Source: Gari tellinella (lineage: Eukaryota; Mollusca; Bivalvia; Cardiida; Psammobiidae). From it: a stretch of DNA of 64,000 nucleotides. The notes below the pieces were generated by a model. It did no database searches. It was not told the origin of the DNA and worked only from the letters and a program-made list of their open reading frames with translations. The stretch is from positions 45,560,070 to 45,624,069 of the forward strand of contig OV277867.1 of the NCBI GenBank assembly GCA_922989275.2, given 5' to 3'. The position numbers and the translations under genes were made by a program. The stretch's first letter is position 1. Each line of letters starts with the position of its first letter. Shown here piece by piece: positions 233-64,000 of the stretch.

Positions 233-499
233 TTAACCCTTTACCCAATAGCCTGTTTCTAGTTTTGAAGAGAAATGACCATTTAAAGCAGATTGAAAGT
301 AAAGCAGAGTGTGCCTTAAGGCACATTCTGCTTTACTATCAGCCTTCTTGAAGCAACCATCTAGAATATACCAGTAGTCTTATAGAACAAATTTCTTAAT
401 ATTGCTACATATTCTTGACTGTATAATGTGGAACTATTTTCTTCAGTGGAAAAATAAATCAAATCTGTGAGAAGGCGTATTTAAGTTTAAATGGGTTAA
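233..499 (+). mobile_element. Family A hairpin MITE
   Basis: Type description for family A. Ends are TTAACCCTTTACCC and its inverse GGGTAATGGGTTAA. The left flank reads GCCTGTTTCTAGTTTTGAAG then ACAGGTGACCACTTAA. The core is a 60-75 nt palindrome whose arm is AAAGCAGGTTGAAAGTAAAG plus CAGAATGTGCC, meeting at a central TTAA. The right flank contains CCATCTGCTAGGATATAG, TTCATGACTGTATAAATTGG and TATTTTCTTCAGTGGAGG. Full copies are 200-270 bp with no ORF. TTAA at both ends and CCC termini resemble piggyBac target duplications and ends (inference). This copy is nearly complete. Confidence 0.85.
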
Positions 500-609
500 A
501 CTGTTACCAGATTAAGAAACTCGGTAGTGTAACCTTAAACAGGGTAATGTCTTGGACTTACTGCATTATGGTTCTACTGCATATTCAAATGAGAGTTTTT
601 TGTTGAAAC

Positions 610-720
610 CTTCTAATCATGGTCTACACTGTTTTGCATAGGACAAGTGCTCTCGCCACTGGTAAACTGTTTGCAAAAGATGCGAATACACATCATTGAG
701 GTTCAATGAATTAATGTATG
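610..720 (+). mobile_element. Family B fragment
   Basis: Carries the family B right half: TCTACACTGTTTTGCATAGG, ACAAGTG and an end resembling TTGAGGTTCAATGAATTAA. The left arm of the palindrome is missing. Confidence 0.5.
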
Positions 721-1198
721 TCACCATCAACTCTTATATTGTGTCTTCATATAGGTTAGACTGCATTGTGACAGGTCTTTGTGAAAATAGAAGGGGCAGA
801 GTGTTAGTGGCCGTAGCCCGTCTATTTCAGGAAGTCTTGTCATTTGTAGTCTTACTAATTTAAACCGCCCATTAATCATGATATTGTTCACAAATCTACA
901 TCCCTAATTGCTTGCTATGTGACATACGATTAGTGGTTGCTATACGATTAGTGGTTGCTATTCTGTACACGCGCCGGAGTCAGCTGTTTTAAGCTGCCAG
1001 CAAAGATAATCTGCCAATCAAAGTTTCCTCACGAGAGTTTCATTTTAGCAGGAATAAACCAGTCTTCATGGAAACGAAAAACTGAATAATTCACACTGAT
1101 TTTAGTTTTGAAGACAGGTGAATACTAAGTCTTAAAGCAGGTTGAAAGTAAAGCAGAATGCTCTTGAAGGAGCACTCTGCTTTTTTTTCAACCTGTTT

Positions 1199-1650
1199 TA
1201 ACCCATTACACCATAAGTATGCCCTTTTACACCTTAATTAATTCCTCCACTGCAGAAAATAGTTGCGCTTTGTATAGTAATGAATAAATACATACAGTCG
1301 AACTTCGTTATCTCGAACTCGGTTAAGTCGAATATACCCATATTTCAAAGTTAAAACGCGGCTAAGCCACGTTTTAACTTTGAAATATGTGTATGTTCGC
1401 CTAACCGAGCATGAATTGATTGCTGTTAATGTGTCGAAATATCGGATAGTTCGAGTTAAGCGAGTTCGAGATATCGAAGTTCGACTGTACTATAAGAAAT
1501 ATTTTCTATTTCCTTGGGGTTGTCGCCTACAGCAGGCTCAGTGTAAAGCAGAATGTGCCTTAAGGAGCATTCTTCTTGACTTTCAACCTGCTTTATGTGG
1601 TCACCTGTCTTTATAGCTTGAAACAGTCCATGGCGCAATAGGATTAGCTT
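1199..1650 (-). mobile_element. Family A copy interrupted by a TA-flanked MITE
   Basis: The left end TTAACCCATTACACCATAAG is the inverse of the family A right end. The copy is broken at 1293 by a 193-bp MITE and resumes at 1490 with AAGAAATATTTTCTAT, then a degenerate core (AGAATGTGCCTTAAGGAGCA) and CTTTATAGCTTGAAACAG. A partial hairpin at 1133-1200 abuts it. Confidence 0.7.
1295..1487. mobile_element. Tc1/mariner-type MITE, 'CAGTCGAAC' family
   Basis: Terminal inverted repeats start CAGTCGAACTTCG and end CGAAGTTCGACTG, each about 38 bp, flanked by TA at 1293 and 1488. The centre is a second palindrome, TTTCAAAGTTAAAACG around GGCTAAGCC. Two more copies occur at 49393 and about 47738. Confidence 0.85.
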
Positions 1651-1770
1651 CCCTCTGGAAAGATACTGGAAATGTCTTCTGTGTTTTATGTTCAGGACTT
1701 TCAAGATGCGGACTATACTTTTCATAGTGCAGAAATAATCAGAGGTATAAAAAGGTGTATATGAAGTAAT

Positions 1771-1857
1771 GAGTTAAAGCAAGTTGAAAGTAAAGCAGAA
1801 AATTTCTTTTGGAGCTTTCTGTTTTACTTTCATCTTGCTTTAAACTACCATATGTAT
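1771..1857 (+). repeat. Family E-type palindromic hairpin
   Basis: Arm TTAAAGCAAGTTGAAAGTAA with its imperfect inverse around a TTTCTTTTGGAG centre; no clear outer ends. Confidence 0.65.
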
Positions 1858-2179
1858 TCAACAGCATCAATAAATATTCATACCATGCATGGTCTAGTGG
1901 TAACACTGTTATTCCAGGGTCATGAGTTAAATTGATTCTCCACCAAACCATGTTTTTAGGATGAGACTTACCGAGGTCCCATGTAAAAGCACTGCTTGGG
2001 CATACAAAGGAATCCGTGTTGGCTCTATGAAAAAGAAAAGGGCATGGCCCGGGTTCTTCTGTATCTGTGTCCCTCCCTCTGGGTGTCAAAATAGACCAAA
2101 GTTGGCATAAAACAGATGTAAATTTAAAATTTTATTGAGGTAGGGTTAAACATGTCTTATGTAGCTTATACAGTTGGGA

Positions 2180-2438
2180 AACTTTTAAAACATTATCCCC
2201 TGAAACTTCCAATGGACAATTCCTGTTTGCAATAAAGTCTGGTCCATTTTAGACTTTTTAGGGTTGATTTTTTTTGTAATAAATTGCAAAATGACAAACA
2301 GTGAAGTCCCTGATCAGAGGGCTCCTGCAGGAGCCCTCTGATCAGAGACTTCACTGTTTGCATAGAACAAGTGTACTTTTCACAGGTACACATTTGGTAA
2401 TGGAGGCAAATATGCGTCACTAGGGCTCAATGAGTTAA
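2180..2438 (+). mobile_element. Family B hairpin MITE upstream of exon 1
   Basis: Type description for family B. Outer ends resemble TTAACCC-x-GAAACTT and AGTGACGC inverted, closing CTAGGGCTCAATGAGTTAA. The core palindrome arm is CCCTGATCAGAGGGCTCCT, inside AACAGTG and CACTGTTTGC. Here the core is at 2300-2360 around CTCCTGCAGGAG. The right TTAA (2435-2438) lies 23 nt before the exon 1 acceptor. Confidence 0.75.
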
Positions 2439-2461
2439 CTATGATTTGTATGTTGTTTTAG

Positions 2462-2669
2462 AGTTGTGTGTGAATAAAGAAGAAGATGTCAGGTGGATCT
2501 TACATGTCCCAGCCATGTTTAAACAGCTGGGCTGTAAAGAGATGTATGGAGATGCCAGACCAGCCCAGGTCCAGCCAGGTGGCCCGACCAATACCCCCAC
2601 AACAACCATTGCAACCAAAACCACCATATGCTTTAGGAAATGACCACAAACCAGCCAGACCATACTCAG
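2462..2669 (+). CDS. LOXHD1: LOXHD1-like exon 1: 5' UTR tail and residues 1-61
   Basis: The start is the ATG at 2486. An in-frame TGA at 2471, five codons upstream, closes the frame, so translation cannot begin further 5' in this exon. A pyrimidine-rich stretch ending TTTTAG at 2461 looks like an acceptor, which would give a 24-nt UTR segment here and an unseen upstream exon. Alternatively transcription starts nearby. The exon encodes a leader beginning MSGGSYMSQP, rich in Pro and Gln with no recognised domain, and ends at the donor GTAAAG (2670) in phase 1. A palindromic element ends 23 nt before the acceptor and another begins 19 nt after the donor. Frame and splice phase are solid; the true start is less sure. 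Confidence 0.8.
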
Positions 2670-5600
2670 GTAAAGTAGCTAGCCCATCTTAACCCTTTAC
2701 CCAATAACCTGTTTAAAACATTAAAGACAGGTGATCTGACTTAAAGCAGGTTGAAAGTAACGCAGAATGTGCCTTAAGGCACATTCTGCTTTACTTTCAA
2801 CCTGCTTTAAACTACCATCATGAGGGTATAAACTTGAACTATTTTCTACTGTGGAGGAAAAAATTAAATACGCTAAAAATGGCTTCTATGGGGTAATGGG
2901 TTAACTCTTCTCCTGCTGAATATGCATTCTATAAAAAGTCACACACTATGAACATCTATCATCTTATCTATTACATTGGCTAATGAAATAAGAAAACTTT
3001 CTCTTGGTGCATAGAGTGAATAAAAATGTTAAAGTTTAAAACAGATTCTATGAGAAAACAGTGTTGACCCAGAAGGAGCTGTCTGATCTGGGTCAACACT
3101 GATTTTCTAAGAGTGTCAATATATGCTAATTGCATTAAGACAAAATTATAATGAAAGGTTATTGTGTTGGACTGTAAATTAATCTTCTTTTAAGTGATGG
3201 CTCTTTACAGGCTTTACTGTTGTACCATTAAACAACCTGTATTTTATTATGCATTTTATTATACATTTAATGACCAGAGAGTACTATTTCTGTCCATTAC
3301 CACAAGGCTCAGATAGAATTGCACTGCGTAACACAGCATTAATCATACAATTAACACTTGGTCCTACTGATTAAATTATTTATTAGCTAACTGGAGAAGA
3401 AAAACCCTACCACAAGTCTTGTGTTGCTCAACCTTCCATGGAAGAAGCTTGTTGAACTATAAAGACAGGTGGCTGTCTACTGCAGGATAAAGATAATGCA
3501 GTAAAGGAGCTGTCTCGGTTACATTTGTTGGCATTGTCAGCTACCATTGACTAATCCTTTCTCTTATAAAGACACCTTTGATGAGGTCATCAATTTCTCA
3601 ATAGCAATGCCTTTTATTGCACATGTGTATCTTTTTTTGGGTCATTAAAGAGCCATATATAGGAAACTGCTTATGGATCCGGACAGGTTTTTGTTCCGTA
3701 AAAATCCAAACAATTTGGGCTCCCTGTATCTTAAAATTAAAAGTACTCTTGTCTTGCTTTAGGCAGAAACCTGTATCAATTTTGTTTTATGCTTCATTAT
3801 AGAGTGACCGCTTAACCCTTTACCCCATGACTTGTTTCTAATTTTGAAAGTAGATGACTACTTAAAGCCTTACTTTCAGCTGGTTCTAAGCTACAACATG
3901 CTAGCATATAGAAACTAATTCATGACTGTATATATTAGAACCAAGTTTTTCAATGGTGAAATGAATTAAAGGCGTTAGAAATGCATATCTATGGAGTAAA
4001 GGGTTAAACATACATGTAGTTGGATGTAGGTGGTTTTGCATTTTTTTGCTGTAGAGAAAAAGGATTACTCATACATATTATGTATGTATTATGTTAACAG
4101 CACCACAGAGAACCATTGTTGCACCATCCTACTCAGACCCCTGGCGGTCCCCAGTCTACAATGACCCCACCCCTCCAACCCGCTCAAGAAGTTACTATGT
4201 TAATGATGAATACCGCCATACACACCCCTGGGCTGGTAAGTATGAACTCCATTGATAATGTCATATAAAGTTATACTGAATTATAGAATACAGTGAAACC
4301 CATCTAAACCAGACATGTGTGGGGACCACATAAATTTCCGGTTCAGAGGGGTTTCCGGTTTAGAGGGGTCTTAACACATAGCTTGTTTCTTTAATGGAAG
4401 ATAACTGATCACTTAAAGCAGGTTGAAAATAAAGCAGAATGCGCCTAAAGGCGCATTCTGCTTTTCTTTCAACCTGCTTTAAGCTACCATCCACTTTAAT
4501 ATAGAAAGCATTTTTGATGATACATATTCATGAATATATTTTCTTCAGTGTAAGAACAAGGGGTAATGATGGTGTAATGGGTTAAAATAAAGAAGTGTTT
4601 GAAGTGGGACCAAAGTTTTTGTCCGGTTTAGAGAGAATTCCGGTATTTAGAGGTTCCGGTTTGGAGGGGTTTCACTGTACATAGAAGTTAATAACTTGGG
4701 CTGGTGTGCCTTTTCATCTCATCTGCATACTGGGAGAGGTATTGGTTCAAGAGCTTTATCCATGGGAGTTTTATATAGAAACACTGCCGTCTAATGCATT
4801 GTCCTGTCTTTACTTTTATGAAAGTGTGAATGTTTTCAAGTGTGTTTTGTTTTTTCAAAAATTCTGTTATTTGAAGAAATGAATAATAGAAATGATGGGA
4901 AAAATGTTTCCATAAGCTTGAAGCTTTCGATCTAATCCTTTACTTTATATGTGTGTGTATTTTCATTCATATTAGTTTGTAGTGTAAATATTATTGAAAA
5001 AAAAAAATGTTTAAACTGAATAAATAATGATCATACATATATATGCAGTTATAGCTAAATTGCTGACAGTTTGTAGGAAACAGACTATAAATTCATTCTT
5101 TAGAATTGACAACACATGTTTAACTGAATGTTGTTTTTTTGTTGATTTTGACAGACCGGAAGCGTGAGAGCTATGTAAACTCCAGCCTAGGTTATCCAGT
5201 TGTACAGGGTGGTAAGGGTGCACCCCTAGCTCCATATGATTCTTTGTATGATCCCCATCTGGTGGAGTACTTTGAGAGAAGATTTGGTGCCATTCAGGCC
5301 AGGGTAAGTTAATAACACAGTATAGTCGCAAGATTACTGCTTATCAAAGCAAAAGAAAAGTATGAATGAATTAATAAATGTTTGCTTTAACACTTTTTAA
5401 ACTTTAAAAGATGTGCAACATAAGAACTATTTCCTATATCCTAGCAGATAGTAACAAAAAGCAGGCTAAAAGTAAAGCAATATGTGCCTTAAGACATTCT
5501 GCTTCACTTTCAACCTGCTTCAAGTGGTTACCTGTCTTTAAAGGGACTCGCAACCGGATGGTGTAATTGTCAAAATAAAATAAATACTCAAATAAAAGCA

Positions 5601-8600
5601 AATTTGTGGCCTTATTTGGCCTCTGACATTAAAAAAATATGATCAGTCCAAAAAAAGTCTTAAGAATCGTCACCGAATCTTAGTTTTTTAGATATTTTCC
5701 ATCGTTTTTCTATAGCGTTAGCTAACGGTATAGTTGTTGTTGTTGCTTCTCTACACGGGCTCAGACATAAACCCGAGCCGAATAAAGTACTATCAATCGC
5801 TACCAGTGAAGTATGTTAATTCACTACCATATAGATAGAGAGCACCAGTAGCCGCGTGGTTAAAGGCGCTTCCCTTTTTGTCATGTTTGTCTCCGCATGG
5901 AGGGTCACGGGTTCGAATCCCACCAGAGCTTCTTTTTTTTTTTTTTTAAATGCATTTTTTAACAGAATTTATTATCCTAAACTAAATCTTACCCATTTAT
6001 ATAAGCATTTGACATATATTTACAAATTACTATTTTTAATGCTAAATCCGGTTGCGAGCCTCTTTAAAGCTAGAAACAGGCTATGAAAAGGGATAAATAA
6101 AGCATGAATGATTATATAAGCTCCACATAACAAGTTACATGACACATAATTTAGATGGCTGACTAGAAGGGTTTTGCTTTCTTGCTTCAAGGTTATAAAG
6201 CGTTTGAGCTCAGTCTGAGTGTTTTCTAAAGCATTTGATTTGTCAGATTTGAGCCTAGGCTCAAATCTTACAAATCAAATGTTTGAGAATGACTTTAGAC
6301 TCAACGCAAAAGCTTTATAACCTTGGACACAGAGGTTTGAGAGAATTTTGCCTTGTTTTATTTCAGAGACGAGTGCGACCATCCAGTGCTTCAAGTTATC
6401 GGTCGTCTAGTCAGGGCACGAAGTACAGGAAGAAGGCTGATGCTGGAGAGGGACCTGTCCTCTACAAGGTGTTTGTTACTACTGCTGATAAGAAAGGAGC
6501 CACCACAGATGCCAAGGTAACTGTCAAATAGGAGTTAACACATTGAACCTTAGCAACTAGTATACTCATCTCGAATGAATCACATACCTATCAAGAGTAC
6601 ACTTGTCCTATACAAACAGTGTAGATCCTGAACAAAGGGCTCCTGAAGGAGCCCTCTGATCATGATCTATACTGTTTGTCCTTTTGTAAAATATTTTTTA
6701 AAAACCTGATTATTCAATAATGGACTTAATTTAATTGTAAATTTGAATTTTCCATTTTAAGTTTCAGGGGTGAATGAGTTAACACTTTACTCCATAGATA
6801 AGCGTTTTTACACATTTGATTTATTCCTCCCTATAATAAAATAGTTCAACTTTATATAGTAATGTATGTATCTCAAGAAATAGTTTCTATATTCTTGCAG
6901 ATGGTCGCTTAAAGCAGGGGGGAAGTAAACAGAATGAACCTTATGCACATTATGTTTTACTTTCAACCTGCTTTAAGCAGTCACCTGTCTTCAAAACCAG
7001 AATCAGGGTAATGGGTTTAGCAACTACTGATCACCATTCTTCTGCTACTAGCACACATTGACACATTTTGAAAACATTGTAGACCCAGATCATTTTGAAA
7101 CATTGTAGACCCTGATCAGACAGCTCCTTCAGCAGCTGTCTGATCAGGGTCTGCACTATTTTCATATAGGATCAGTCTTTCATGAGCCTGTACTCATTCC
7201 TGAAAGAAACAAAATAAAAAACCAATAGGATCTGGTGAAAATATCCTATGGTAAATTTATGTGTTTTAACCACTAAATTCCCATTTGTTTTTTCGCCCCA
7301 GGTGTTTCTCTCCTTCAAGGGAACGAAGGCTAAGATCCAGAGAACTCGCCTTACAAAGAAAGCAGGTTCAGTGAAGTCTAACAAGCATGTAGCCTTCAAG
7401 TTTTCTAAAGGAACCACCCACATGTTCAAGATCCGAGGGCCAGAAGTGGGCAACATCAAATCTATCAACATGGAGGTGGGTACAGTATTCTGTAAACTCT
7501 ACTCATAGGTTGCAGGAATTGACTGCCATTGGCAAACAGTGCTGATTCAGATCACAGAGACCACGGTTATAGTCTGAGCTACTGTCTATGGAAAAGTTTA
7601 GACATTAAACCATGTGTATTTTGCAAACAGTGTATGCCTCCTTAATAAGGAGCCCTCTAACCGGAGTCTGTCTGTTTGTCCCACATACAGTACATAACTT
7701 TGTCCGGCTAACTCCTCCTACAGTTTTCAAACTACAACCTTATAACCTGGCAGAGTGTTTGCATATATACCATATATTTATATTTTGATCTGCTGTAATG
7801 TTTCACAAAATTACAGTCAGTTGAACTTAGTCAATTTTTTGCTGATGGGGGCATCATATTTTACAGTCAAAGCCATCCCTCTAGTCTTTAAAATCCATAA
7901 AATCAATAAAACTTTGTGTATTTATGGAGTAATGGGTATGTGGGACTCCTGGCTATCTAAATACTTATGCTTCTTTATGCCTTTGAGCACATGTTTACTG
8001 TAGTTCTCATCACAATGGTGTTGTTTTTTCACAGCATGACGGTATCAAGAAAGAAGATGGCTGGTACTTACAGGAGGTGGAAATTGTGAACACTAAGAGA
8101 AATAAGTCCTGGCTATTTATGTGTAACTCCTGGCTCTCCTTACATCATAGTGACTGCCATTCTAAACGAGAATTCTTCCCACATCTTGGCTCAAAGACAG
8201 GTAATAGTTTGTGACGAAACCTCATAGTATAGTCATTAGTCAATAGGTGACCATTTAAAGCACGTTGAAAGCAAAACAGAATGTGCTTTAAGGCACATTC
8301 TGCTTTACTTTCAGCCTTCTTTAACTCTTTGAACCCTGGTCTCGCCTATATGCATCATTTGCAAACATCGTTCCTGTGAGGAATACACTTGTCCTATGTT
8401 AACAGTGCAGACCCTGATCAGAGGGCTCCTTATTTGTCATTTTGACATATACTGTAAAAACCAACCCTAAAAGGTCAAAAATGGATTAGACTAAATTGAA
8501 AACTAGAATTGTCCATTTGAGGTTTCAGGGAGGAAAGGGTTAAGTGGTCATCATAAGTACCAGATATGAAGTAAAGGGTTAATTAGACACCTGTATACTG

Positions 8601-11600
8601 TTGATATAATGATAAACACAACTCGCTCACTCATCATCAGTTAATATGTGTGTTCACTAGCTATGGAGACAAGGACTTATGTTAAGCATTATTAAAAAGA
8701 AGGCATGATGATATAGCAGTTCTTATCTTGTTTTTAAGCCACAATTTAGGCAGGAAGCATAATGATCTGACAACTCAGTGCAGAACAAAAGTAATGCAAA
8801 AAGCTCCTATATCCCCAATCTATATTTCTTTAACTATTGACATATATTATTTATCAATTTCTCTGCTATTTCAGATTACGAGGTTGTCGTGGTGACTGGA
8901 GACAAAATGGTGGCTGGTACAGATTCTAAAGTGTTTATTACAATATATGGAAAAACAGGTGCCACTAGTAAAACTAACTTGAAGAGTGCTAAGTCCAAAA
9001 ACCCCTTTCAGCAAGGACAGAGTGATTTATTCAGGATACATTCAAATTGTGTAGGACCTTTGACAAAAGTAAAAATTGAACACGACAACACTGGATTTGC
9101 TCCAGGATGGTTCCTAGAAAGAGTAAGTATAATTTAAGAAATATTAACCAATTACCCCTTAAATATGCATTTTATGCATTTAATTTATACCTGCACTGAA
9201 GAAAATAGTTAAGAAATATTAAGAAATATTTTCTATATTCTAGCAGATGGTAGCTTAAAGCAAGCTGCAAGTAAAACAGAATGTTCCTTAAGGCACATTC
9301 TGCTTTACTTTCAACCTGCTTTAAGTGGTCTCATATCTTCAATACTAGAAATAGGTGATGGGGTAATGGGTTAAAGGCAAATTTGTAAAGAAAAAGTGGT
9401 CCACTACTCCATAAATACACCTTTTAACGCCTCTTATTATTCTTGCACTAAGAAAAGTAGTCCTTAGGTTGGCAATTCTGGAAATAAATCATGGACGGCA
9501 TTTCAAGTGCTTTCCAGATAGAAGCTTTAAGCAGCCCGAAAGTAAAGCAGCATTCTCCTTCAGTGAGCATTCTGCTTAACTTTCAACCTGCTTAATTCTT
9601 TACCTGATAGCCTATTTCTAGAATTTAAGATATGTGACTACTTTAAGCAGGTTGAAAGTAAAGCAGAATGCGCCCTAAGGCGCATTCTGCTTTACTTTCA
9701 GCCTGCCTTAAGCTATCATGTGCCTGAATATAGAAAATATTCCCTATAATATATTCATGACTGATTGAATTGGAACTATTTTCTTTAGTGGAGGAACAAA
9801 TCATATTAGCTAAAAGGCGCACTATGGGGGAAAGGGTTAAAGAGAGAACTTATAACCAAAGCTAGAAACAAGCAATGATGTAAAGGATCAAGTGAACTAT
9901 GAACAACTATAAAATCAAATATTTTATTGGCTAATAAAAATAAGGAAACTTTTCCCCATGCAAAACAACCCACAGATTCATGTCAGGCAAGGAAACAGTG
10001 CAGATCCTGAAGGAGCTGTCTGCTATAGGTCTACACTGTTTAAAAAGGCAGGAATCTTATTGTTCTATGGTCAGAACATGCTAGAAACCTGAACAAGGCA
10101 TTTTCCATCAGGATGTGACTTATATTTTGGTAAAAAAGGGAGATTACTGATGAAAATTCAATAACAAACCAGATTTATAAGCTATAAATGTCTTGTGTTG
10201 TCTCCCTTGTTCTTGTGTATCATCACCATATCACAAGTATCTTAACTTCATTGCGATATGTTTCTGCATCTCTTTGGTACAAACTTTTCTTTGAGCTCTT
10301 TCCTCAATACCTTGCTTTCAGAATTGAGGGCAGATGGTTTTTAAAGTAGGCTGGAAGTAAAACAGAGTGCTCCTTAAGGAACAATCTGCTTTACTTTCAG
10401 ACTGCTTTAAGTTATCATCTGCTAGGATATAGGAACTATTTCTTATGTTGCACATTCATGACTATGAATTGGAACTATTTTCTTCAGTGGAGAAATAAAT
10501 TTATGGCCTAGAAAGACATGCCTATTGGGTAATGGGTTAATTTGGCATGACTACAGCCTTTATAATGTTCATAGTTTTTCTGTCTGTTGATGTCTGCAAA
10601 ATATATCATCATATTTTCATCCTGAACAACAACTTTTTTTCTTCTATTTATGTTAAAAAAAAAAGGTCCTGGACAGCCTCAAAATAATCTGATCTGGAAA
10701 AACTGTTTAAAAAAGTTCTAGAAGACATTTTCGCAGTCAAAGAGTTTTAGAATCCCTCCTTTCTTCCGGCTCACAATAGTTACACCATTGTGATAATACC
10801 CTGGATTAGTACACACATAAGCAAGTGCAGTAATATAAAACTGATGTGATATAAATGTTTTCCCCCTAACTAACTACAGGATATAATCACTACTAGGAAG
10901 TCATTAGCCCCTTTTCCCCATAGAAATACCTTTCAGTGCATTCAAGTTATTCCTACACTGAAGAAAATAGTTCCAATTTATACAGTCATAAACATGGTAG
11001 CATAAAGCAGGCTGATAGTAAAGCAGAATGTGCCTAAGGGCACATTCTGCTTTACTTTCAACCTGCTTTAAGTGATCAGCTGTCTTCAAAACTAGTAACA
11101 GGCTATTGGGTAAAGTCATTCACTACTGAAACTTTAAATGGAAAATTACAATCTTCATTTAAGACTAGTTCATCTATGCCTACTTCGGTTTGTTCCCCAA
11201 TGAATTGCAAAAAAAAACCAAATAGTGCAGACCGCGACGGAGAGTTCAAGTGAAAGTAACAATATAGATTTGGTGGAGACAAAAATAAATATTTAATTCT
11301 CACTTAGAACTTTGTACTGAAGAGTAACACACTGTGTTGCGTTTAAAATCTTATGAAGTAAGTTTAACTCGCCCCTTAGGAGCTTTCTGTTTTACTTTTG
11401 TCCTACATTAAGCAGTCATGCATCTCTGTTGAATAATTGTAAAAACAAGTTTGGTTGTACCAGATAACTGCATCCTCAAGATTATTTTAAAGAGATAGGG
11501 TTTGATGGTGACAAAAAGGAGAACTTGTTGCACATATTTAGTGCATATGTGCTCCCTCGTACCCATAACCTTTTACAAAACAGTAATAATTGCGTTGCTA

Positions 11601-50600: not shown

Positions 50601-53600
50601 GTATCTATAGGGTAATGGGTTGAATGTTTCTGTAGAAATATACCTACCTTCTACATTTGGAAGAACATTGTTTACTCTATTTACTTTTATTACAGACTGT
50701 TTATTAGCCCCCACAAACTCGCAGTGGTCCTCGCCTAAATCTTCCTTATCTCCAATGTCTAGAAAAGTATCTTCCAGAGAATCACTCAAGAATATTTTGT
50801 ATCTCGTTGCATTGCACAAAACTACTCCAACAAATACACCAGTTTCATAGCCCGTCTTTTTCACATATTTTTTACCTCCATAACACCCTGTTATTTCAGC
50901 CGAGTACTGAAAGTCATAAGCTATCCACTTATTTTCCTCCAAAGCACTGTTGCGAGTATACCGTTCAACTTCTTCTAAAGATTCCTTAAAGCCTTCCATA
51001 GAGTCCTGTATAGTATCTATTTGCTTCAGTAAGTCACTATGTCTATCTTTAAGTTGGTCATATCTACTTTGAGAATTTACAAAGTCTTGTTTTATAGATA
51101 CAATATCTTTAGCATGAAGCTGGTGAAGGTGTGATATGTTAGGGAATACATATTGCCAATTATCTTGCATGCCTTCTATAAAATGTACTGCTCTTGCAAC
51201 CTTCAACTCTTCTTCAAGCTGTTCTTGATTGAAGTCAGGATATTCAGGATATAGTGTATCATTGATCTGCCCGTTTAATGTAGATATATTGTTCTCCACA
51301 TAGTGTAAAGTTTGTCTCATGTCCGCTTTGAAATTTTGTAAAGCAGTTTTTGTTAGATGCTGTTCCCTTTCGCTATCGTCTAATTTCTCACGGAAATGAT
51401 TTATCTCTTGTCTTAAAGGTTTGCTATATTCAGACAATTTAGAAGTGACTTTAATTTCCATATCTAACAGTCCTTGCTGGAAGAGGTCTTGAAACTGTGG
51501 GTCAGCAAGGAAGTTAGAGCGCAGGCTAGAGATACCAGATGCTAAAGTTTTAATGTCATTTTCAAGACTTTCAATCTTTTTACTTGCATTACCTTCATGA
51601 TGCCCATGTTTTGTCATATTAAACAGTTTATGTTCATACTTAGTTCTAAACCCTTCAATTATGTCCAGTACTTTTGTCATTTTCCTTTCGATTTCTTTCA
51701 AGTGTCTGTTTGTAATAGATTTAACTTTTTCTGTTTGTTTGTCTAAATTTTCTGCCAGGTCACTTTTGAATATTTCGATGAGTCTCTCCATCCTGGAGTC
51801 AAAGCGAGCATCAGCCTGGAAGAATTGAGGTGGTACACCGTTCTCTGGTACCTCATTGTCCAGGGCACTCTGGTCATACTGGAACTGTCGCGCTAGCCTC
51901 TCTAACTGTTGATCAAATCTCCTGGAAAACTGATAACTAGGCTTCGGACCAGCAGCTTTCTTTGTGCCTTTTGTATGTCTAGTTCGTATTGGTTGTGGCA
52001 ACTGAGAACGTTGTCGGGTATTACTCTGTAGTTGGTTGTACAGAATCTCAGATGTTATTTCTTCATAACTGCTATCCACTAAACCATTGTTTGTTGCAGC
52101 GTCTATCTCAGAAAGTAACTGTTTTTTGATTTCCCCAGCTAAACTACTCTTGATATCATCTAACTCTTTATCTACTAAAGGTTTCAGCACTCGTACAAGC
52201 CTCTTCCTTGTTATTGTAAACTTTCCACGCTGTTTATCCTCTTCTAACAATGTCAGTCTGCCTTCTATACTGGGAATTTTATTATTTTCCAGTTTCTCCA
52301 GCCGTTCACCTAACTGTTTGATCTCATGGCCTTTATCATCCTTGGCGAGAAGCTTTGTAAGCCTTATATTGAGCTCGCTAATGTCCTGCTTGACTTGTCT
52401 TATTTCACTAGCTATGGCATGCATCTTCATAGTGGTTTTCCCTTTCTCATCACAGGAGCTTTTAATCTTTTCTTGTGGAATGACCAAACTGACAATACAA
52501 TTTTCCTCATCATCTGTCTTTGACACCGCTGCCGCATCCATTTCACCAAACATCACCATAGTAACATAACAAAACACTAGCGGAATTTTAATATCCATAT
52601 TTCTGCACAGGAGGAACATCAGTAGTTTTGAAAACACATGATAAGCTCTGACACGGTTTTATCCTCCGATGAGATATGCAGAATTCCTGGTGGAGAGGAG
52701 AGGCAGTACCGTATTTCCTTGGCCTTGTTGAGTGGCTGTTGATAAGCAATCGAGGAGAGTAGGAGCGGTACTATTGTAAAGTCTGCTTACATCATCAGCA
52801 CATCAGATCACTGTTACCACATATTTCACCTGTAATATAAAATATCTAAATAAAATATCTCATTCAAACCTAGTCACTAGTATACTTGTCATATACAAAA
52901 TTTTTAATATGCCCTGTGAAAAGTATGCTTGTCCTATACAAACAGTGCAGACCCTGATCAGAGGGCTCCTTAAGGAGCCCTCTGATCAGGGTCTGCATTG
53001 TTGGTCATTTAGCAATTATATTGTAAAGAACACCCCCAAATAGTCAAAATTGGACTAAACTTAATTGGAGATATGATTTTTCCAGTGGATGTTTCAGGGT
53101 TGAATGAGTTAACACAGTAAAGTATTGACAACTTGCTTCACTCAAGCTTTCTCATATTTCAAAGTTAAAACATGGCTTAGCCAGGCTTTAACTTTGAAAT
53201 ATAGGTACCGGTAAGTTTGATTTGAGAAAATTTTAACATACATGTATTTATAATAGACTAATGTAGAAATACAGGTCGATGACTTTGGCAAAGTTTGAAT
53301 TATCAAGAAATGACTGTTTATACAAAGATAAATAGATTTGAAATTAGTCAGGCAGCAAATTTTATTCATATCAGCTATTCTTTCATTAAATCTTTGCACG
53401 CTAGCGGTGGATATAGCTGCAACAGGCATAACCTTTGAAAACAGTTTGGATCCAGATGAGACTGCCCGTAACACGGCATCTCATCAGGATCCAAACTGTT
53501 TGCAATTCTGACACTGAATTTAAAAGAAATTTTGAAAAATTCCAATTTTAGAACAGAAGCAGACAACAACTGTTGCAGACGGAAAAAAATTACCCAGCAT

Positions 53601-56600
53601 GCAAAGATTTAATGCACAACTCATCTTTTTCTCAATTTGATATAAACTAGCGAAATATAAAAACTGTAACAGTCACAATGTTGTGTTACAATCAATCAAA
53701 AGATAAATTGGGTAATCTTAAGTTCATGTGGCTTCTAGATGCAGAACAAAAGTGATACAATCTAGAGAGAAACGTGTCTATAGAGATGGTTCTGTATTAC
53801 TTATGTCCTTCATTTAACAGTAAACTATTTTTAGAGATCCCACTGCTTCTTCAATGAGTTTTTGTTGAATACCGGTTTGTTTGTTACATTATATGTTTAT
53901 GAAATAAACTGATATGGTGACCAATTTTTTAACCCATTAACCCTTTACCACATAGAAGCGCCTTTTAGCGTATTTAATTTATTCCTCCACTGATGAAAAT
54001 AGTTTCACTTTAAACAGTCATAAACATGTATCAAAAGAAATATTTTCTATATTCTAGCAGATGGTAGCTTAAAGCAGGATGAAAGTAAAACAGAATGCAC
54101 ATTAAGGTGCATTCTGCTTTACTTTCAACCTGCTTTAAGTTATCACATATCTTCAAAACTAGACACAGGCTATGGGGTAATAGGTTAAGTCAAAGCTAAT
54201 TTACCTTGAGCCAAACTGTTTTAAATGCTCATGCTTTAAGTATGATAAGGATTAAACTTGAAAGGTTTGTCTGATAAATCAGTTTGAACTATTCTGCTTT
54301 ACCCATCTCCCACTAAAAATCTTACATGTATATATAAAACTCCACCCACTATGAACATCTATCATCTAAACAATTACATTGGCTAAAACATTAAAGAAAT
54401 CTTATTTCCCTTAGAAAGAGTTAAGAATCATTTCAGACAGATCCCATAAGAATACAATGATCTGCTCCTTCAGAAGCTGTCTGATCTTGGGTGACACTGT
54501 TTTAGTAATATACACATGTAGCAGGAGAAGGGTTAACACGCTTCTTATTTATTTGATAAATAAGAAATAAAAACTGCACTAAAAATCCATTAATAAGTTT
54601 TTAATCTGATAGTTTTTGTCACCTTTTTTCTTCATTTGTTTTTCCACTTTTTTCTTCATTTGTTTTTTCCTCTCCCAGTTTATATTTACCATAACCTCCC
54701 ATAATTTGTGAACAGTGTATACAATAGGTTGTTGCTTACAGCCGGCTGAAAGTAAAGCAGAAAATTATTGTAACTTTCTGCTTTACTTTCAATCTGTTTT
54801 CAGCATCCACCTGCCAAGTTGGAAGAAAAGTGCCCCATGGCTCTTTATCTTGATATGGTAGAAGCACGTAAAGGCATTTAGTCATGAAATGGTGCTTAGA
54901 GCTATGGGGGAGGAGGGGCAGGGTTAGATTAATTATTAGATAGGAATTTTATTAGTGAGGTATAATGCTTCAGTTCATTAGAAATATTTACTTGAAGCAT
55001 TCAGTGCATTTCTGTCAGTAACTTCTTATCCCATTACCAAATAAATACACCTTTTAAACCTCTAATTTATTCCTCCATTAAAGGAAATATGTAAAATTTA
55101 TTCAGTCATGAATATGTATCATCATAATCATAATAGCTTCAAGCAGGCTAAATGTAAAGCAGAATGCACCTAAATGCGCATTCTGCTTTACTTTCAATCT
55201 CCTTTAAGTGGTAATATATCTTCTAAACTAGAAACAGGCAATGGGTAATGGGTTAATATGTAACCTAAAACTGTACATTATCTGATTCTGATTCTGATTA
55301 TTTGAAAAAGTTCATAACAATTTACTTCATAATTCATCATCAAAATTAAATGGCAGTAATATAACCCTAAACCATGAAATTGGTTATTGATGAAGCAGAT
55401 AAACGAATAAACTAAACCTTCTCCTGTTAATAGCATACCTGGTTTACATTCAACACACTTTAACCCATTACCCCATAAATACAACTTTTTACGCCATTAA
55501 TTTAACTCCACTAAAGAAAATAAATCCAATTTATACAGTCATGGATATGAACCATAAGAAATATTTTCTATATCCTAGAGGATTGTGTCTTAAAGCAAGT
55601 TGAAAGTAAAGCAGAATGCACCTTGGGGTGCATTCTGCTTTACTTTCAACTTGCTTTAAGTGTTCACCAATATTGTATATTAGAAACAGTCAATGGGGTA
55701 ATGGGTTAAGTGGACATCTATCTTTAAAAATAGAAAGGGTTTGAGGTTAGCAGTATTTGAAATATCCACTTATCTGGAGCCAAGCTGCCTTGGCATTGAA
55801 CAGGTTGATTAAATCCTTTAAACATTTCCTCACTTTGAAATATAAATATATTAATCCATTACACAAATTCAGATTACACAGATTAAAACATTTTTTTTCA
55901 TGTTTATTCCCCTGTTTTTCTTCTTTATTTCTATTCATTAAAATCATATCAAAGAGACAGTTTTGATGATTAGTCACATTAGTTTGTTTTGGTTGAAATA
56001 TAACGAAATCATATTTTGTAATATCCACTTCTCTTAGTGCTTATCTACGTACATTGACTCAGGATGATTCAATCCCTTTAGTATTTCCTCACTTTAAACA
56101 CAGGCAAACACATCTGAATTAAATCCATCATGCTATTTTTTAGCTTTTACATATTTTGCACAATTTTTTTTCCTTCCATTTAAAGATACAAGCGAACCAT
56201 AAACCGATGATTTGGATAAATATTTCAGTGTTACAACGATGCACTGTTATCAAAACCTGTATGAGCTAGCTGTAGTATATACAGCGTAGAAATCTGGGAT
56301 CTTTTGTGTGCTGATGGTTCATTTCCGCGGTAGATCATTTTAATTGTTTTTTAATCCTGTACAGTCAATCTTAAACATGAAATGACAATTAATAAAATAG
56401 CATGGAGGTCTCTAAAGACAGGCAACTGCTTAATGCAGGATATAAATAATGCGGAAAGCTCCTACAGGAGCTAAGTTCTGCATTAATTTTATCCAGCATT
56501 AAGCAAGCACCTGTCTTAAATATTAAGGGTTTTCAATTGAGTGATGGTTTAATAGAAGATTGATTGTAGTATGTTTAACAAGCATGCTTGTATATTATAA

Positions 56601-59600
56601 ATTAGAAACAGCTTGCTAATCCGTAAAAACACTAAACATTATTACAGTCTAACCATGATAATTGCAACAGCTTAAGTCAAACTTACCCATGTTTCATAGT
56701 TAAAACATAGCAAAGCCATGTTTTAACATAGAAATATACTTACGCAAGTTTGAAGAAAGTGAATTCAAGTGATCAAACTTCATCTAGAGAAATACAGATT
56801 TATTTGAATTAAACACTATGTTATTGACTGTACTTATTTACTTAGTAGGCTGAAACATTAGACTTCAACGGTAGACATTATAAATTTCAAAGAACACTTT
56901 AAATGCTTCAGACTAACTGTTGTCTTCATTAAAATCAGCATCTGCTGGACTTTTGAAATTTTCACATTTGTATGTATATTTCCGGAGATTCTATCCAACT
57001 GACAAACAGTTGGGATCCTAATCAAGGACCTATTTCCATAGATATATCTAAGCAAGGACAGTACAGTAAACTCTCTCTGAGCCACTCAAAGTTAGGCTTG
57101 GTTTCTGTGTTTACCTCAGGGCATTGCTTAACATAGGTTGATTGATTGATTGAGTAGGGTTTTACCGCATCGCAGCACATAAAATGGTAATCTGGCGCCA
57201 ATGTAGGACAAAAGTATTATGCTGTATAGTTTGTATTTCAATTTTATCCTGTTTTAGCCAGTCACCTGTGTTTAAAACACTGGCAGGTTTTTACTGTTAC
57301 TTTGTAACAAGAAAGTTTATCAAATAGACACTTGATACTTGGTTACTGGCTGGTATGCAAGTCATGTCACTGTTAGTTCTGTCACAATAAATATAGATGA
57401 CAGTTTTATGTATAATGTGAAATGGATGTAAATAACAAAATTAAGGCTTGACTGGTATTATTTTTATTGTAACTAAAAAGATTTACTAAATGTATAATTA
57501 TGTTCTGATGAATGTAACCAAAGATTAAACTAATACAGTAACATATGAAAAAAAATATTTAAATATGCTAGACTAGACTAGACAGTTGTGTATGATCAGA
57601 TTTTGCTAATTTCGTTCTGTAAAAATGTCTTCTGCTTTCTCAACAGTTTTCTGTTCTATAAAAATATTTTTCAAAAATAAAGTTTTTTATTTTATATGTT
57701 TCTCTTAAAAAATTTCTCAAGAATAAAATTAGTCAATTTTTTCACAATTACAAACGGGTAATAGTGCAATAACCTTTATATCATTTATATCTTGAATAAA
57801 ATTAATGTGTAAATCAACTGAGATAGCTAGGCTGAGGTTTTAATTAATAAAATACAATTAATCTTGTGCTGATTTCCATTTATGAAAAAATGAATAGAGA
57901 CTTTAAAAAAAATCTAATCGCTAAACACAAAATCAAGTTAAGTCTTGCAAGAGTTTTCAATTTTATCCATATTCCTACTTTCAGCCATTACCGATAATAA
58001 ATGTTGCTAATTAATTGCTTTATGAGTAGTCACTTAAGACAAGTTTAATTACGATGCAAGACTGTTAAAACACTGTCTACTCACCCAGTGTATCCCAGTT
58101 GTTGAAAAGCATGAGAGAAAGTGGCTCCATGTGTTTATAAAGAATACCAGTCAACCGCAATAGAACATAGATTATGCAAACTATGTTCATAAGTACTTAT
58201 ATAGCAACCTTTCTCCTGCTTTTAGCATATAATGATGCTTTTTGAAAACAGTGTAGACCCAGATCAGACAGCTCCGTCTGGAGCTGTCTGATCTGGGTCT
58301 ACACCGTTTTCTTATAGGATCTGTTTGACATTGAGTCTGCACTCTATCAAGGAGATAATTTTCCTTTTCTTATTAGCCAATGTAACAGTTCAGATAAGAG
58401 ATGATCATAGTGGGCGGAGTTTTATAACTCAATGTTCAGTAGGAGAAGTGTTAGGTTTTAGAAGATGATGGGACCCACTTGTGTGTGGTTGGTTGGATCA
58501 TACAGATAGCTAGTCAACAATGAGATCTCTTGTTACAGCCAACTTTTAGTGAATCAAACTTTTGTGCAGCTGCCAGTAAAAGCACCTGTGCCCAACTGTG
58601 TTGACGTAGGATACTGTTTAAAGCAAGAAAAAAGTAAAGCAGAAACTCTTAAAGGAGCTTTCTGCTCGACTTTCATCTTGCTTTAAATTGTCACCTGTAT
58701 TGAACAGCATCAATCAATATTGATTTGTGGTGCTTCTTTGGAGGTGTAGGTAGAGGTGATCAAAGACCATTTTATAGGAAAGGTTTTAGAGCATACGCAT
58801 TATGCATGGTCACAAATTAAATTAAATGAACCCTTTCAATATGTTGGCTCTTTATATACAAACAGAGTACCTTTGAAGCATGTATACATTGTAAACCCAA
58901 ATGATACACAGGAGCCCTCTGATCAAGGTCTGCAATATTTGTCATTTTGCAAACATATTGTAAAACAACCATAAACAAACAATAATGGAATAGACTAAAG
59001 CTGGAACTGTAATTTCCATTTGAAGTGTCCTTGACTTTAGTGAGTTAAAAATGTCTAACACCCAAAATCTACTTAACTGTTTTGTGGTTCAATATCTTCA
59101 AGGTTGCAAACATCCTTGTCAGTTCTGATGCATCCAGACTAACTTTGTCTCAGTTTCACACACTCTCTTCGAAATCAGAAAGCTCAAGCATGACCATATC
59201 AATTCTTGGGTGCCTTGTGCATAAGGCAAGTGTAATCTACTGAATATCCAAGGAGATTTCATCATGCAGATCCAGCAGTTCATTGATCTGTCATTTCTCC
59301 GAAGCAGCTGATTGTCTGGTGCTGCTAGGTATCTAAATTTCACTTTCATCCAATAGAACAGAGCGGACACAGGCGTTGAACACTCTCTCACGGGTCATTA
59401 GGGATACATGCTTGGGTATCAGGAGTGGCAGTACATGTAGTTTCTTGAACTTTACAAAGGCAGCACTACCATACGTCTGGTGATGATGGCTAGCTTGCAG
59501 TCTCAGCCAAAACAAAGCATATTCTCCTGCTAAATGTTTATAAATAAAACTCAGTCCAATACAATATCTATCATCTAAACTATAACATGTACATAGGCAA

Positions 59601-61694: not shown

Positions 61695-61733
61695 GTATAG
61701 ACTTCATACAATCTGTAGCAGTTTTAACCCATT

Positions 61734-61978
61734 ACCCAAATTCAATAATCCGTTTCTACTTTTGAAGATATTGGACCACTAAAAGCAGGTTGAAAGTAAA
61801 GCAGAATGCGCCTTAAGGCGCATTCTGCTTTACTTTCAGCATGCTTTAAGCTATTAATATGCTAGAATATAGAAAATTATTATGATTTTTATTTGTGACA
61901 ATATAAATTGGAACTTTTTTCTTCATTATAGGAATTAATTAAAGGCATAGAAAGGCATATTATGGGGTAATGGGTTAA
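61734..61978 (+). mobile_element. Family A hairpin MITE just after exon 11
   Basis: TTAA at 61734 and 61975; core 61780-61852 with perfect apex GCGCCTTAAGGCGC. It starts 39 nt after the exon 11 donor. Confidence 0.86.
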
Positions 61979-62127
61979 CTCACTAATATGTTACATAGTT
62001 TCAGAGTCTTGGAGCACATGGCTTTGTATGTGAATAGACAGCGGGTTGTAATGTACATGTTTGTATAGAGTTTTACAAAGTTCATACATCAGAATTGATA
62101 ATAAATTGTAATGTATTTGACCAGAGT

Positions 62128-62278
62128 TTAACTCTTTACTATATAACCCTTTTAAAGTATTGAAGACAGGTGACCACTTAAAGCAGGTTGCCTTCAGGCA
62201 CATTCTGCTGTACTTTCAAACTGCTTAAAGTGGTCACCTGTCATCAAAGCTAAAAACAGGTTATGGAGTAAAGGGTTA
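62128..62278. mobile_element. Fully symmetrical family A variant
   Basis: Both ends carry the same (left) flank: ATTGAAGACAGGTGACCAC and GTGGTCACCTGTCATCAAAG pair, as do TTTACTATATAACC and GGTTATGGAGTAAAGG. The inner core is partly deleted (AGGTTGCCTTCAGGCACATT). Confidence 0.8.
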
Positions 62279-62829
62279 TAATTCTGATGCATGAACTTTG
62301 TATACAATTTATAACACCAAGTTTATTGTCTGTATATTACTATCAGTATGAGATAATTTGCATTAAATATTCATGTAGTTGTAGACTTAAATAATAGATT
62401 TAATTATAGGTTTAAAAGATATAATCATTTTAAATGTATGATGAGATATTAAAAAAAAAAAATTCTCATGATCAGAATATATGACTACCCATTCAACAAT
62501 AAATCTAGTTCAGTTTTCTTTGTTGAGATTGAAATACATGTATCAGATTCATATGGAAACTGACCTGGCAGCATATACCATATAAAATGTCCTTCAATTT
62601 GCATATAATTAGCAATAATGAGAATTTAAACCTTTTCCCACAAAACCTTTCAGCTGATCTCCAAGACCACAAGACAACTATACCTGAGAATAGTCATTTT
62701 CTAGCTAATACATTACTTGTTTCAATATAACCACTACAAACTCTTTAAACTTAGTTGCTTTATGTCTATTTTTTACTGAAAGATATATTCAGATCAACTT
62801 TTGAGTTTTTATTCAGCAAGTGATCTGCA
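62279..62829. other. Intron without a clear feature
   Basis: AT-rich with a poly-A run near 62451; no exon, ORF or hairpin supported. Confidence 0.5.
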
Positions 62830-63056
62830 TTAACTCTTCGTATGCTGGGTAATTTTTGGTCATCTGCAACCATTGTCGTCTGCTACTGTTCTAAAATGAG
62901 AATTTTCAAAATTTCTTTTCAAAAACAGGGTCAGAGTGTCATACAGTTTGGATCCTGATGAGACACCGCATTACGCGGCGTCTCATTTGAATCCAAACTG
63001 TTTGCAAAGGTAATCACTGTGGCAGATATATATGTCGCTAGCATGCAAAGAGTTAA
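62830..63056 (+). mobile_element. Family D hairpin MITE, complete
   Basis: TTAACTCTTCGTATGCTGGG and GCTAGCATGCAAAGAGTTAA ends; core 62944-63002 (ACAGTTTGGATCCTGATGAG and ACACCGCATTACGCGG). Confidence 0.86.
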
Positions 63057-63344
63057 AGCTGTTTGTAAATGTGAATGAAAAAGGGAGTAATTTGACCAAT
63101 CGTTATAGGTTTATCACTTAGGCTGACACATCATGGCTGACATATCATCTACTAGTGTTTCCTTTCTAGTTTTGAATTTCTGGTGAAACAGACTTTTATG
63201 CTTTTAAAATTATAAAACCCATTCAAATGTGAGAAAGTTTCGAAAAGTGATTCCCACAATAGAATTATTTAATTGTTCAGTGTCCTGGTTTTTTTGCAGT
63301 AAAATCTGTTGCAAAATCGTCATGTTGAGTAAGAATCGCCAGGA

Positions 63345-63415
63345 TCTCGAAGAACAAAAGTAATGCAGAAGTTCCTTTAGAACTTTGAGGATTACTTTTG
63401 ATCTTCATTAAGTTT
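63345..63415. repeat. TTAATGCAG-type decayed hairpin
   Basis: GAACAAAAGTAATGCAGAAG, TTCCTTTAGAAC and an inverse arm ATTACTTTTGATCTTCATTAAG. Confidence 0.58.
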
Positions 63416-63515
63416 AAATTTATTTTTCGGCAAGATGTCTATTTGTTTTTTGCATTGACTCTATAGCAAAGAGTAGTCTGGATATTTTAATTTTGTACCA
63501 TCTATGAATGTTTAA

Positions 63516-63775
63516 TTAACCCTTTACCAAAAGCCTGTTTCTAGCTCTGAGGACAGATGACTGCTTAATTTAGATTGAAATTTAAGCAGAATGCACCTTA
63601 ACCCTTAAGGTGCATTCTGCTTTATTTTCAGCTTGCTTTAAGCTACAATCTGCTAGGATAATAAAAGAAAATATATTTATGGTGCATATTCTTGACAGTA
63701 TAAAGTAGATCTATTTTCTTCATTGTATGAGTAAATAAAAGGTATAAAACATGTAGTTGCAGAGTAATGGGTTAA
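63516..63775 (+). mobile_element. Family A copy with a TTAA-CCC-TTAA apex
   Basis: TTAA at 63516 and 63772; the core apex reads CACC-TTAA-CCC-TTAA-GGTG (63598-63608) instead of CCTTAAGG. Confidence 0.85.
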
Positions 63776-63822
63776 ATGAAATCTTAGTTTTCACTGCAAG
63801 GAGACATGCATTGGGATAGGCT

Positions 63823-64000
63823 TAAAACCCTTTACCCCATAACCTGTTTTTAGTTTTGAAGACATGTTACCACTAAAAGCAGGTTGAAAGTAAAGCAGAA
63901 TGTGCCTTAAGCATGCTTTGCTTTCAGCCTGCTTTAAGCTATTATCGGTTTGGATACAGAAAATATTTCTTACACAGCATATTCATGATCGAATAGAATT
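63823..64000 (+). mobile_element. Family A copy cut by the window edge
   Basis: TTAAAACCCTTTACCCCATAAC, GAAGACATGTTACCACTAAAAG, a core with a shortened right arm, and the flank to 64000. Confidence 0.8.

Follow-up and report, generated by a model that had tools for sequence, protein, structure and literature searches.

Many short elements in the Gari tellinella genome are built around long palindromic stretches, and the results of this work show that these palindromes are common to transposons of different types, i.e., to elements ending in TTAA, in CAGGG and in TA. The elements were analysed in a stretch of 64,000 nucleotides (hereafter the window; C12:45560070-45624069 of a 1.598-Gb genome in 80 contigs) and in loci elsewhere in the same genome. 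By core we mean the long palindromic stretch of an element, and by shell its ends together with the flanking arms. The sharing of cores between shells is the new point of this work: no report of one palindromic core common to TTAA, CAGGG and TA elements was found in a literature search that left subscription papers mostly outside and did not include Repbase. Core I had no match in the collection viral_contigs, and core II none in viral_contigs or genome_contigs, zeros that carry little weight because these collections hold viruses and prokaryotes, and near records may have been left out of them. Sequence strings looked for in the literature had no match either.

The palindrome-cored elements are real and are not a local oddity. 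The window holds 57 long hairpins, against none in each of three shuffled windows, and it contains TTAACCCATT 35 times and TTAACCCTTT 19 times (both strands counted), against 0 to 2 occurrences in 20 shuffles. The initial annotation of this DNA had counted about 45 full or partial copies of family A, a figure within the range of ours, i.e., 88 matches, mostly without overlap and with fragments counted (E up to 1e-3), of which 36 reach both ends of the family to within 10 positions and 30 to within 3. It had also spoken of an exceptional density in one locus, which is not borne out by a comparison sample of six 10-kb pieces from other places in the genome, set against the window's first 60 kb. 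Eight modelled palindrome-cored families make up 27% of the bases of this sample, compared with 36% in the first 60 kb of the window, and both figures are rough because single 10-kb pieces range from 10% to 44%. Hairpins number 35 in the sample against 54 in the window's first 60 kb, and family A matches 35 against 77, i.e., they are about twice as dense in the latter; family M is the rarer one in the window, with 16 matches against 44 in the sample and 0 both-ended copies against 14. One of the sample's pieces (L041:1-10000) holds a local cluster of nine near-full elements of this TA-ended, palindrome-cored family. Genome-wide, exact TTAACCCTTTACCC occurs 36,567 times (control 45) and the exact 34-base core I lies at 96,433 places (control 0). 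Families B, C and D were defined anew here and may differ from those given the same letters in the initial annotation.

Cores in TTAA, CAGGG and TA shells

Families with different ends have common cores, both among the families of the window and when these are compared with family M. At 30 loci with an exact core I (L045-L074, all within the first megabase of contig C1), the core lies in an A shell in 25 cases, some of them truncated, and in a CAGGG shell in the other five. The model of family A is 252 nucleotides long, both TTAAs included, with the palindrome at about 50-121; the palindrome is internal and not at the ends, as initially described, but it is off-centre rather than central. The CAGGG shell (254-261 nucleotides, CAGGGCTGCCAT...ATGGCAGCCCTG) contains positions 6-140 of the A model, including a remnant of A's left end, and because this A-derived part holds a piece of A's end, the core would seem to have been captured from A into the CAGGG shell. 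Eleven of 17 listed stretches with this shell have both ends, one of them in the window (37647-37883, minus strand, with core I and with TTAGCA flanking both sides by eye), and the 6-mers flanking them, compared by eye, are equal at 6/6 positions in seven copies and at 5/6 in four. The other six stretches (L042, two in L043, L004, L059 and L027) are broken or one-ended and were excluded from this comparison.

Another family, D, has the same type of ends (CAGGG...CCCTG). Its copy at 33506-33698 (plus strand, core 33570-33644) has perfect 6-bp GAGTTA flanks by eye, and in its copy at 36017-36200 (minus strand, core 36062-36136) the flanking 6-mers match at 4/6 positions, again by eye. The target duplication of hAT transposons is 8 bp; here, the repeats are of 6 bp in 11/11 two-ended CAGGG copies and in one D copy, and the CAGGG shell and D are presumed to be hAT-like solely for their CAGGG ends.

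Core II is found in four TTAA families, B, B3, E and F, whose ends and arms differ and whose cores are related, with the form AAACAG...CTGTTT. Many of their window copies start with CTC and some E copies with CCC, and some B-type ends elsewhere read CCCT. The same core is carried by M, a TA-ended element of 250 nucleotides (TACAGTGGAGAATCTG...CAGATTCTCCACTGTA) with 27 distinct full copies; a degraded M lies in the window at 31789-31995 (minus strand, model positions 2-236, 93 bits). Copies of M and of family C (1293-1489 and 49391-49617, both plus strand) begin and end in TA, and for these ends this kind of shell is tentatively called Tc1/mariner-type. C and D have palindromic cores other than core I and core II. 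With C, D, the CAGGG copy carrying core I and the degraded M, the window departs from the initial statement that all of its palindrome-cored elements begin with TTAA.

The suggestion that piggyBac-type transposases mobilise the TTAA families is, as far as sequence can tell, well supported, because joining the flanks of nested inserts leaves a single TTAA and the genome holds apparently intact piggyBacs, one kind of them with a decayed core; the ends of A, moreover, start with CCC. One A copy (31171-31420, minus strand) lies within the TTAA at the palindrome centre of a host A (31088-31583, plus strand), and its excision leaving one TTAA yields a full A (1-252, 209 bits). Another (9592-9840, plus strand) is inserted at the core-end TTAA of the A at 9401-9595 (minus strand); across this stretch (9401-9840) the joined flanks match A 4-247 with 124 bits, against 99 for one side. 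Likewise, an open-frame piggyBac (L022) occupies the TTAA in the middle of a B core, where the joined flanks score 229 bits to B and the halves 103 and 106. A TTAA target site duplication was hence read twice for A as the insert and also for the piggyBac inserted in the B core. No clean empty site was read for B, B3, E or F as inserts: at L043, a B is flanked on either side by half of a CAGGG-shell element, and both halves start at the core's central TTAA, but the join gives no single full match and, with the joins at 46385, 8243 and 12700, which have no clear full match either, was excluded as an empty site.

A search of the genome with PF13843 gave 86 matches, many of them with open frames. 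One piggyBac element of 3,044-3,046 bp (L009, L010 and L036, copies 99.3-99.9% identical) encodes a protein that, in L009, is related both to piggyBat (E 1e-47) and to piggyBac (E 2e-41). At 42-110 from one of its ends this element has a decayed core II (E 9.5e-14 to the B model, among ten elements), with no clean hairpin remaining. Among the same ten elements, this end weakly matches the right side of F (E.002, half of the core being part of the match) and the other end weakly matches the right end of A (E.005). The comparison of ends with autonomous piggyBacs, which the initial annotation had proposed, thus gave these weak matches on the one hand; on the other, no autonomous element with A's CCC[TA]TTACCCCATA end was found among the piggyBac loci with readable ends, about half of the 30 loci having no end pair. 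The remaining readable piggyBac ends differ from those of the families of miniature inverted-repeat transposable elements (MITEs) described here. As to the ends of A in the window, 19 read CCCTTT, which fits the piggyBac-type terminal motif CC[C/T]T given in the description of coral MITEs (PMC2872659), and 35 read CCCATT, i.e., CCC and not CCCT. Kolobok MITEs were also considered and rejected, the termini beside TTAA being CC or CT here and not RR, as in the 5'-RR...YY-3' termini of Kolobok (PMC9587614).

Variation, pairing and folding of the cores

Lineages of A, M and B differ less from one another in the core than in the shell, and the two parts are much closer in their single-copy rates. 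Core and shell were compared in a first run using only copies that reach both ends, with identical copies from overlapping loci merged; five of its 13 CAGGG copies had been picked by exact core I and its A set includes core-chosen loci, and such loci were excluded in a second run. For A in the window (36 copies), changes confined to a single copy have a rate of.020 in the core and.023 in the shell, against.064 and.146 for shared changes. The core is less diverged than the shell in 32/34 of the window copies, which holds for transversions and without CpG-like sites, and in 65/67 copies of A once core-chosen loci are left out. In M, from the random sample, the single-copy rates are.031 in the core and.029 in the shell and the shared ones.009 and.067 (10/13, p.03), and in B the shared rates are.035 and.106, the core being less diverged in 10/10 copies. 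Full copies of B3 (n=2) and E (n=3) are too few for this test. Because single-copy changes are mostly decay after insertion and shared ones are mostly differences between multiplying copies, this distribution suggests that the core is held in the lineages that multiply.

Pairing in the cores extends over about 33 bases of each arm, and the cores of the A, B and F types fold into strong stems (-37.5 to -40.5 kcal/mol with DNA parameters, and z-scores of about -15 to -16; the folded B and F cores are each one base off the model consensus). For three of the families, differences between consensus cores have their counterpart in the other arm: M and F differ at two positions in the left arm and two in the right, both compensated, M and B at six and seven, of which six are compensated, and F and B at seven and eight, of which seven are. 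M and F also keep the same unpaired site and the same loop, in the same polarity, and because of this the copying of a whole arm fails to explain the matched changes. Within families, paired changes exceed those obtained by swapping arms between copies (45 against 22 in A, 8 against 1.5 in M, 5 against 1.2 in B, 10 against 4.5 in F and 7 against 3 in the CAGGG elements). Concerted evolution of the arms after insertion, considered for A, finds little support: the arm mismatch of 14% is somewhat less than twice the core divergence of 8.4%, and the pairing stays within the range of column shuffles (see below).

The core as a proposed hairpin module and the alternatives

We interpret these elements as probable MITE-type, non-coding DNA transposons in which a shell encloses a long palindromic core. 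In view of the different insertion marks, integration would be carried out by the transposase proper to each shell, i.e., piggyBac-type for TTAA, hAT-like for CAGGG and mariner-like for TA shells. The core, in turn, could raise the output of any short element carrying it, and selection would then keep its paired, hairpin-forming state; our guess is that it acts as DNA, in the form of a hairpin or cruciform that arises when the element is replicated or transposed, and not as RNA or as a site bound by protein. We lean towards this reading, judged from sequence, in which the core, as a transferable hairpin module, is under selection for the propagation of short elements whatever their transposase, but we do so with no great confidence. 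The more ambitious version, where the core is a selfish unit independent of any transposase, jumping among piggyBac-, hAT- and mariner-type shells, boosting their copy number and shaping perhaps a quarter of the 1.6-Gb genome, is tentative and probably goes too far.

Several results weigh against the hairpin module. The contrast between core and shell does not reach significance in the CAGGG shell by itself, once core-chosen copies are removed (6/7, p 0.16), nor in F (9/12, p 0.11), and single-copy changes are somewhat rarer in the core than in the shell in B (.034 against.049), in eight CAGGG copies (.041 against.050) and in ten A copies of the sample (.044 against.071). In the small sets this is to be expected if such changes are in part lineage differences, and it would equally be expected of conversion. 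In seven pairs of cores that involve E or B3, only 1 to 5 of 3 to 11 differences are compensated, in comparisons that draw on three E and two B3 copies, the E core model being a shortened one. The excess of paired changes within families is modest, 32 of the 45 in A coming from one site, and the pairing of the 36 window copies of A (.858) falls within what 200 column shuffles give and is barely higher than in the best among 500 arm swaps; an earlier and larger excess was inflated because its copies had been chosen as hairpins. Nor is there in A any excess of G-T over A-C mismatches (38 against 36, counted by hand with one consensus mismatch set aside), and without a wobble excess action as RNA and action as DNA are not told apart. 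Finally, mini-elements of 80-120 bp were transposed in vitro in work on Mos1 and, in the same study, full palindromy is argued not to be required (PMC2642840).

The core could instead be a passenger, picked up on a few occasions through nested insertion or gap repair and then multiplied along with its new shell, to which it would be of no help. Nested insertions into TTAA sites of cores were observed, and the presence in the CAGGG shell of A 6-140 with the remnant of A's left end is what such capture predicts. A passenger, however, accounts poorly for a core whose shared divergence is below that of the shell in A, M and B while its single-copy rates are alike or only somewhat lower, and for the compensated differences that M, F and B show in their cores; we consider it unlikely, if far from negligible. 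Long palindromes are prone to breakage, and cores might be kept alike, with no selection involved, by gene conversion or by template switching, whether between arms or between copies. This would fit the modest excess of paired changes within families and the somewhat rarer single-copy core changes in B and two small sets, but not the about equal single-copy rates of core and shell in M and in the larger A sets, nor the unpaired site common to M and F, which conversion has not erased, and we think it improbable.

In a further alternative, the palindrome is the binding site of a dimer, e.g., of the cysteine-rich domains of piggyBac-type transposases, whose half-sites change together. Dimers of these domains in piggyBac and piggyBat are described as binding subterminal palindromes of 14-19 bp (PMC11707139), and core II does lie at 42-110 from the end of an autonomous piggyBac; yet arms as long as those seen here far exceed such sites, and the core is conserved in the TA-ended M as well. 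This explanation seems to us just a little less improbable than conversion. The least probable of those weighed here, and very doubtful, is that the core works as an RNA hairpin in read-through transcripts, acting, e.g., on small-RNA silencing. Stems of such strength could favour it, although they were computed with DNA parameters, whereas the window has no Rfam match at the gathering score, the wobble excess that one would expect is missing, and a survey of mollusc small RNAs reports, in the part available to us, no evidence for a dedicated endogenous siRNA pathway (PMC12479628).

Copies in the window, neighbouring features and precedents

Besides the nested ones, copies of A with both ends lie on the plus strand at 233-499 (the first copy noted initially), 2689-2904 (core I at 2741-2810), 3812-4007 (most of the core deleted), 4371-4585, 10296-10540, 24374-24640, 26257-26504, 34589-34837, 38324-38575, 43847-44097, 49050-49301, 59861-60113, 60369-60619, 61724-61978 and 63516-63775. 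On the minus strand they lie at 6779-7016, 9144-9374, 10909-11115, 18393-18644, 29470-29721, 30578-30828, 35153-35372, 40134-40344 and the adjoining 40342-40571, 40820-41060, 42925-43175, 43292-43544, 46460-46715, 47870-48120, 48414-48664, 48837-49053 (sharing a TTAA with the plus-strand copy that starts at 49050), 53937-54188, 55026-55256 and 55460-55709. A TTAA element at 62128-62278 is almost entirely palindromic (62-nucleotide arms, 81%) and resembles two left halves of A placed head to head; it is a possible origin of the core.

Family B, of the TTAA type, is represented by full copies at 6536-6784 and 52856-53114 (both minus strand), by 2185-2437 (plus strand, core II at 2295-2360), by 8322-8544 (minus strand, at a TTAA adjoining a core I fragment) and by 12830-13015 (plus strand, with a deletion), and B3, which has other ends and a B-type core II, by 33227-33471 (plus strand) and 41630-41878 (minus strand). 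Core II with TTAACYCTTCTCCTGCT-type ends, i.e., family E, is found at 2902-3152, 17630-17852 (core II shortened), 45852-46059, 54302-54535 and 59521-59736 on the plus strand and at 58201-58453 on the minus strand (core II at 58244-58311). With TTAACTCTTTGCATGCTGGG-type ends, i.e., family F, it lies at 34870-35083 and 62828-63058 (plus strand) and at 50062-50271 and 53384-53614 (minus strand). Palindromic elements of the GGGCCCGTTTC type at 25715-25956 and 39634-39899 form another MITE-like family.

As for the rest of the window, exon-like open reading frames at 6259-9137, one of which (8841-9137) has a PLAT domain, presumably belong to a LOXHD1-type gene, and many palindrome-cored elements lie around these exons. 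A 686-amino-acid open frame at 50541-52598 (minus strand) has a C-terminal TARSH_C domain, and its 3' end enters an A fragment. The PLAT and TARSH_C domains fit an animal genome, and a protein search gave a single hit, unnamed and at 31%. An inverted pair of about 540 bp (13122-13656 and 16952-17490, 88% identical) stands outside the palindrome-cored families, and degraded open reading frames at 59119-59638 look reverse-transcriptase-like by eye.

A central domain common to families with different ends is familiar from CORE-SINE type families, which are retroposons, unlike the DNA transposons discussed here. Among the latter, the L009/L010/L036 piggyBac resembles our elements in its TTAA ends and in the decayed core II near one of them, and differs in being 3.0 kb long and coding. 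The initial annotation had thought of an undescribed class, which is too strong for internally palindromic MITEs in view of what is published on the bivalve Lucina pectinata and on corals. A MITE-like repeat of 210 bp in the haemoglobin gene of L. pectinata has imperfect terminal repeats of 30 bp and a 77-bp centre that is 96% palindromic, a second one has a 68-bp self-complementary segment, and fragments more than 80% similar are reported from other molluscs (PMC4732748). In the part of that report available to us no target duplication was found and no superfamily or sharing of cores is given, and the likeness drawn here is by description only. The coral CMITEs (Acropora) are piggyBac/TTAA MITEs of several families in which conservation is higher in the internal region than in the terminal repeats, and they too occur as tandem copies and as one TTAA element inserted in another (PMC2872659). 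Family A behaves as they do, its core being 91-92% identical to the consensus and its terminal repeats 84-89%. The CMITEs differ in that, in the part consulted, TTAA elements only are described, and neither 'palindrom' nor 'hairpin' appears in the main text that describes them (PMC2872659), whereas here the palindrome occurs in CAGGG and TA elements as well. The part consulted of one survey of bivalve repeats leaves MITEs unclassified (PMC10294476).

Why many MITEs are internally palindromic is left unexplained by the model of the Mos1 study, going by the part of it consulted (PMC2642840). The question becomes testable with the elements described in this work, because shells whose insertion marks differ carry the same core, and the conservation of this core is separate from theirs. 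With more than a quarter of the bases in the sample of six other places covered by the modelled families, these elements are also relevant to the repeat annotation of this genome.

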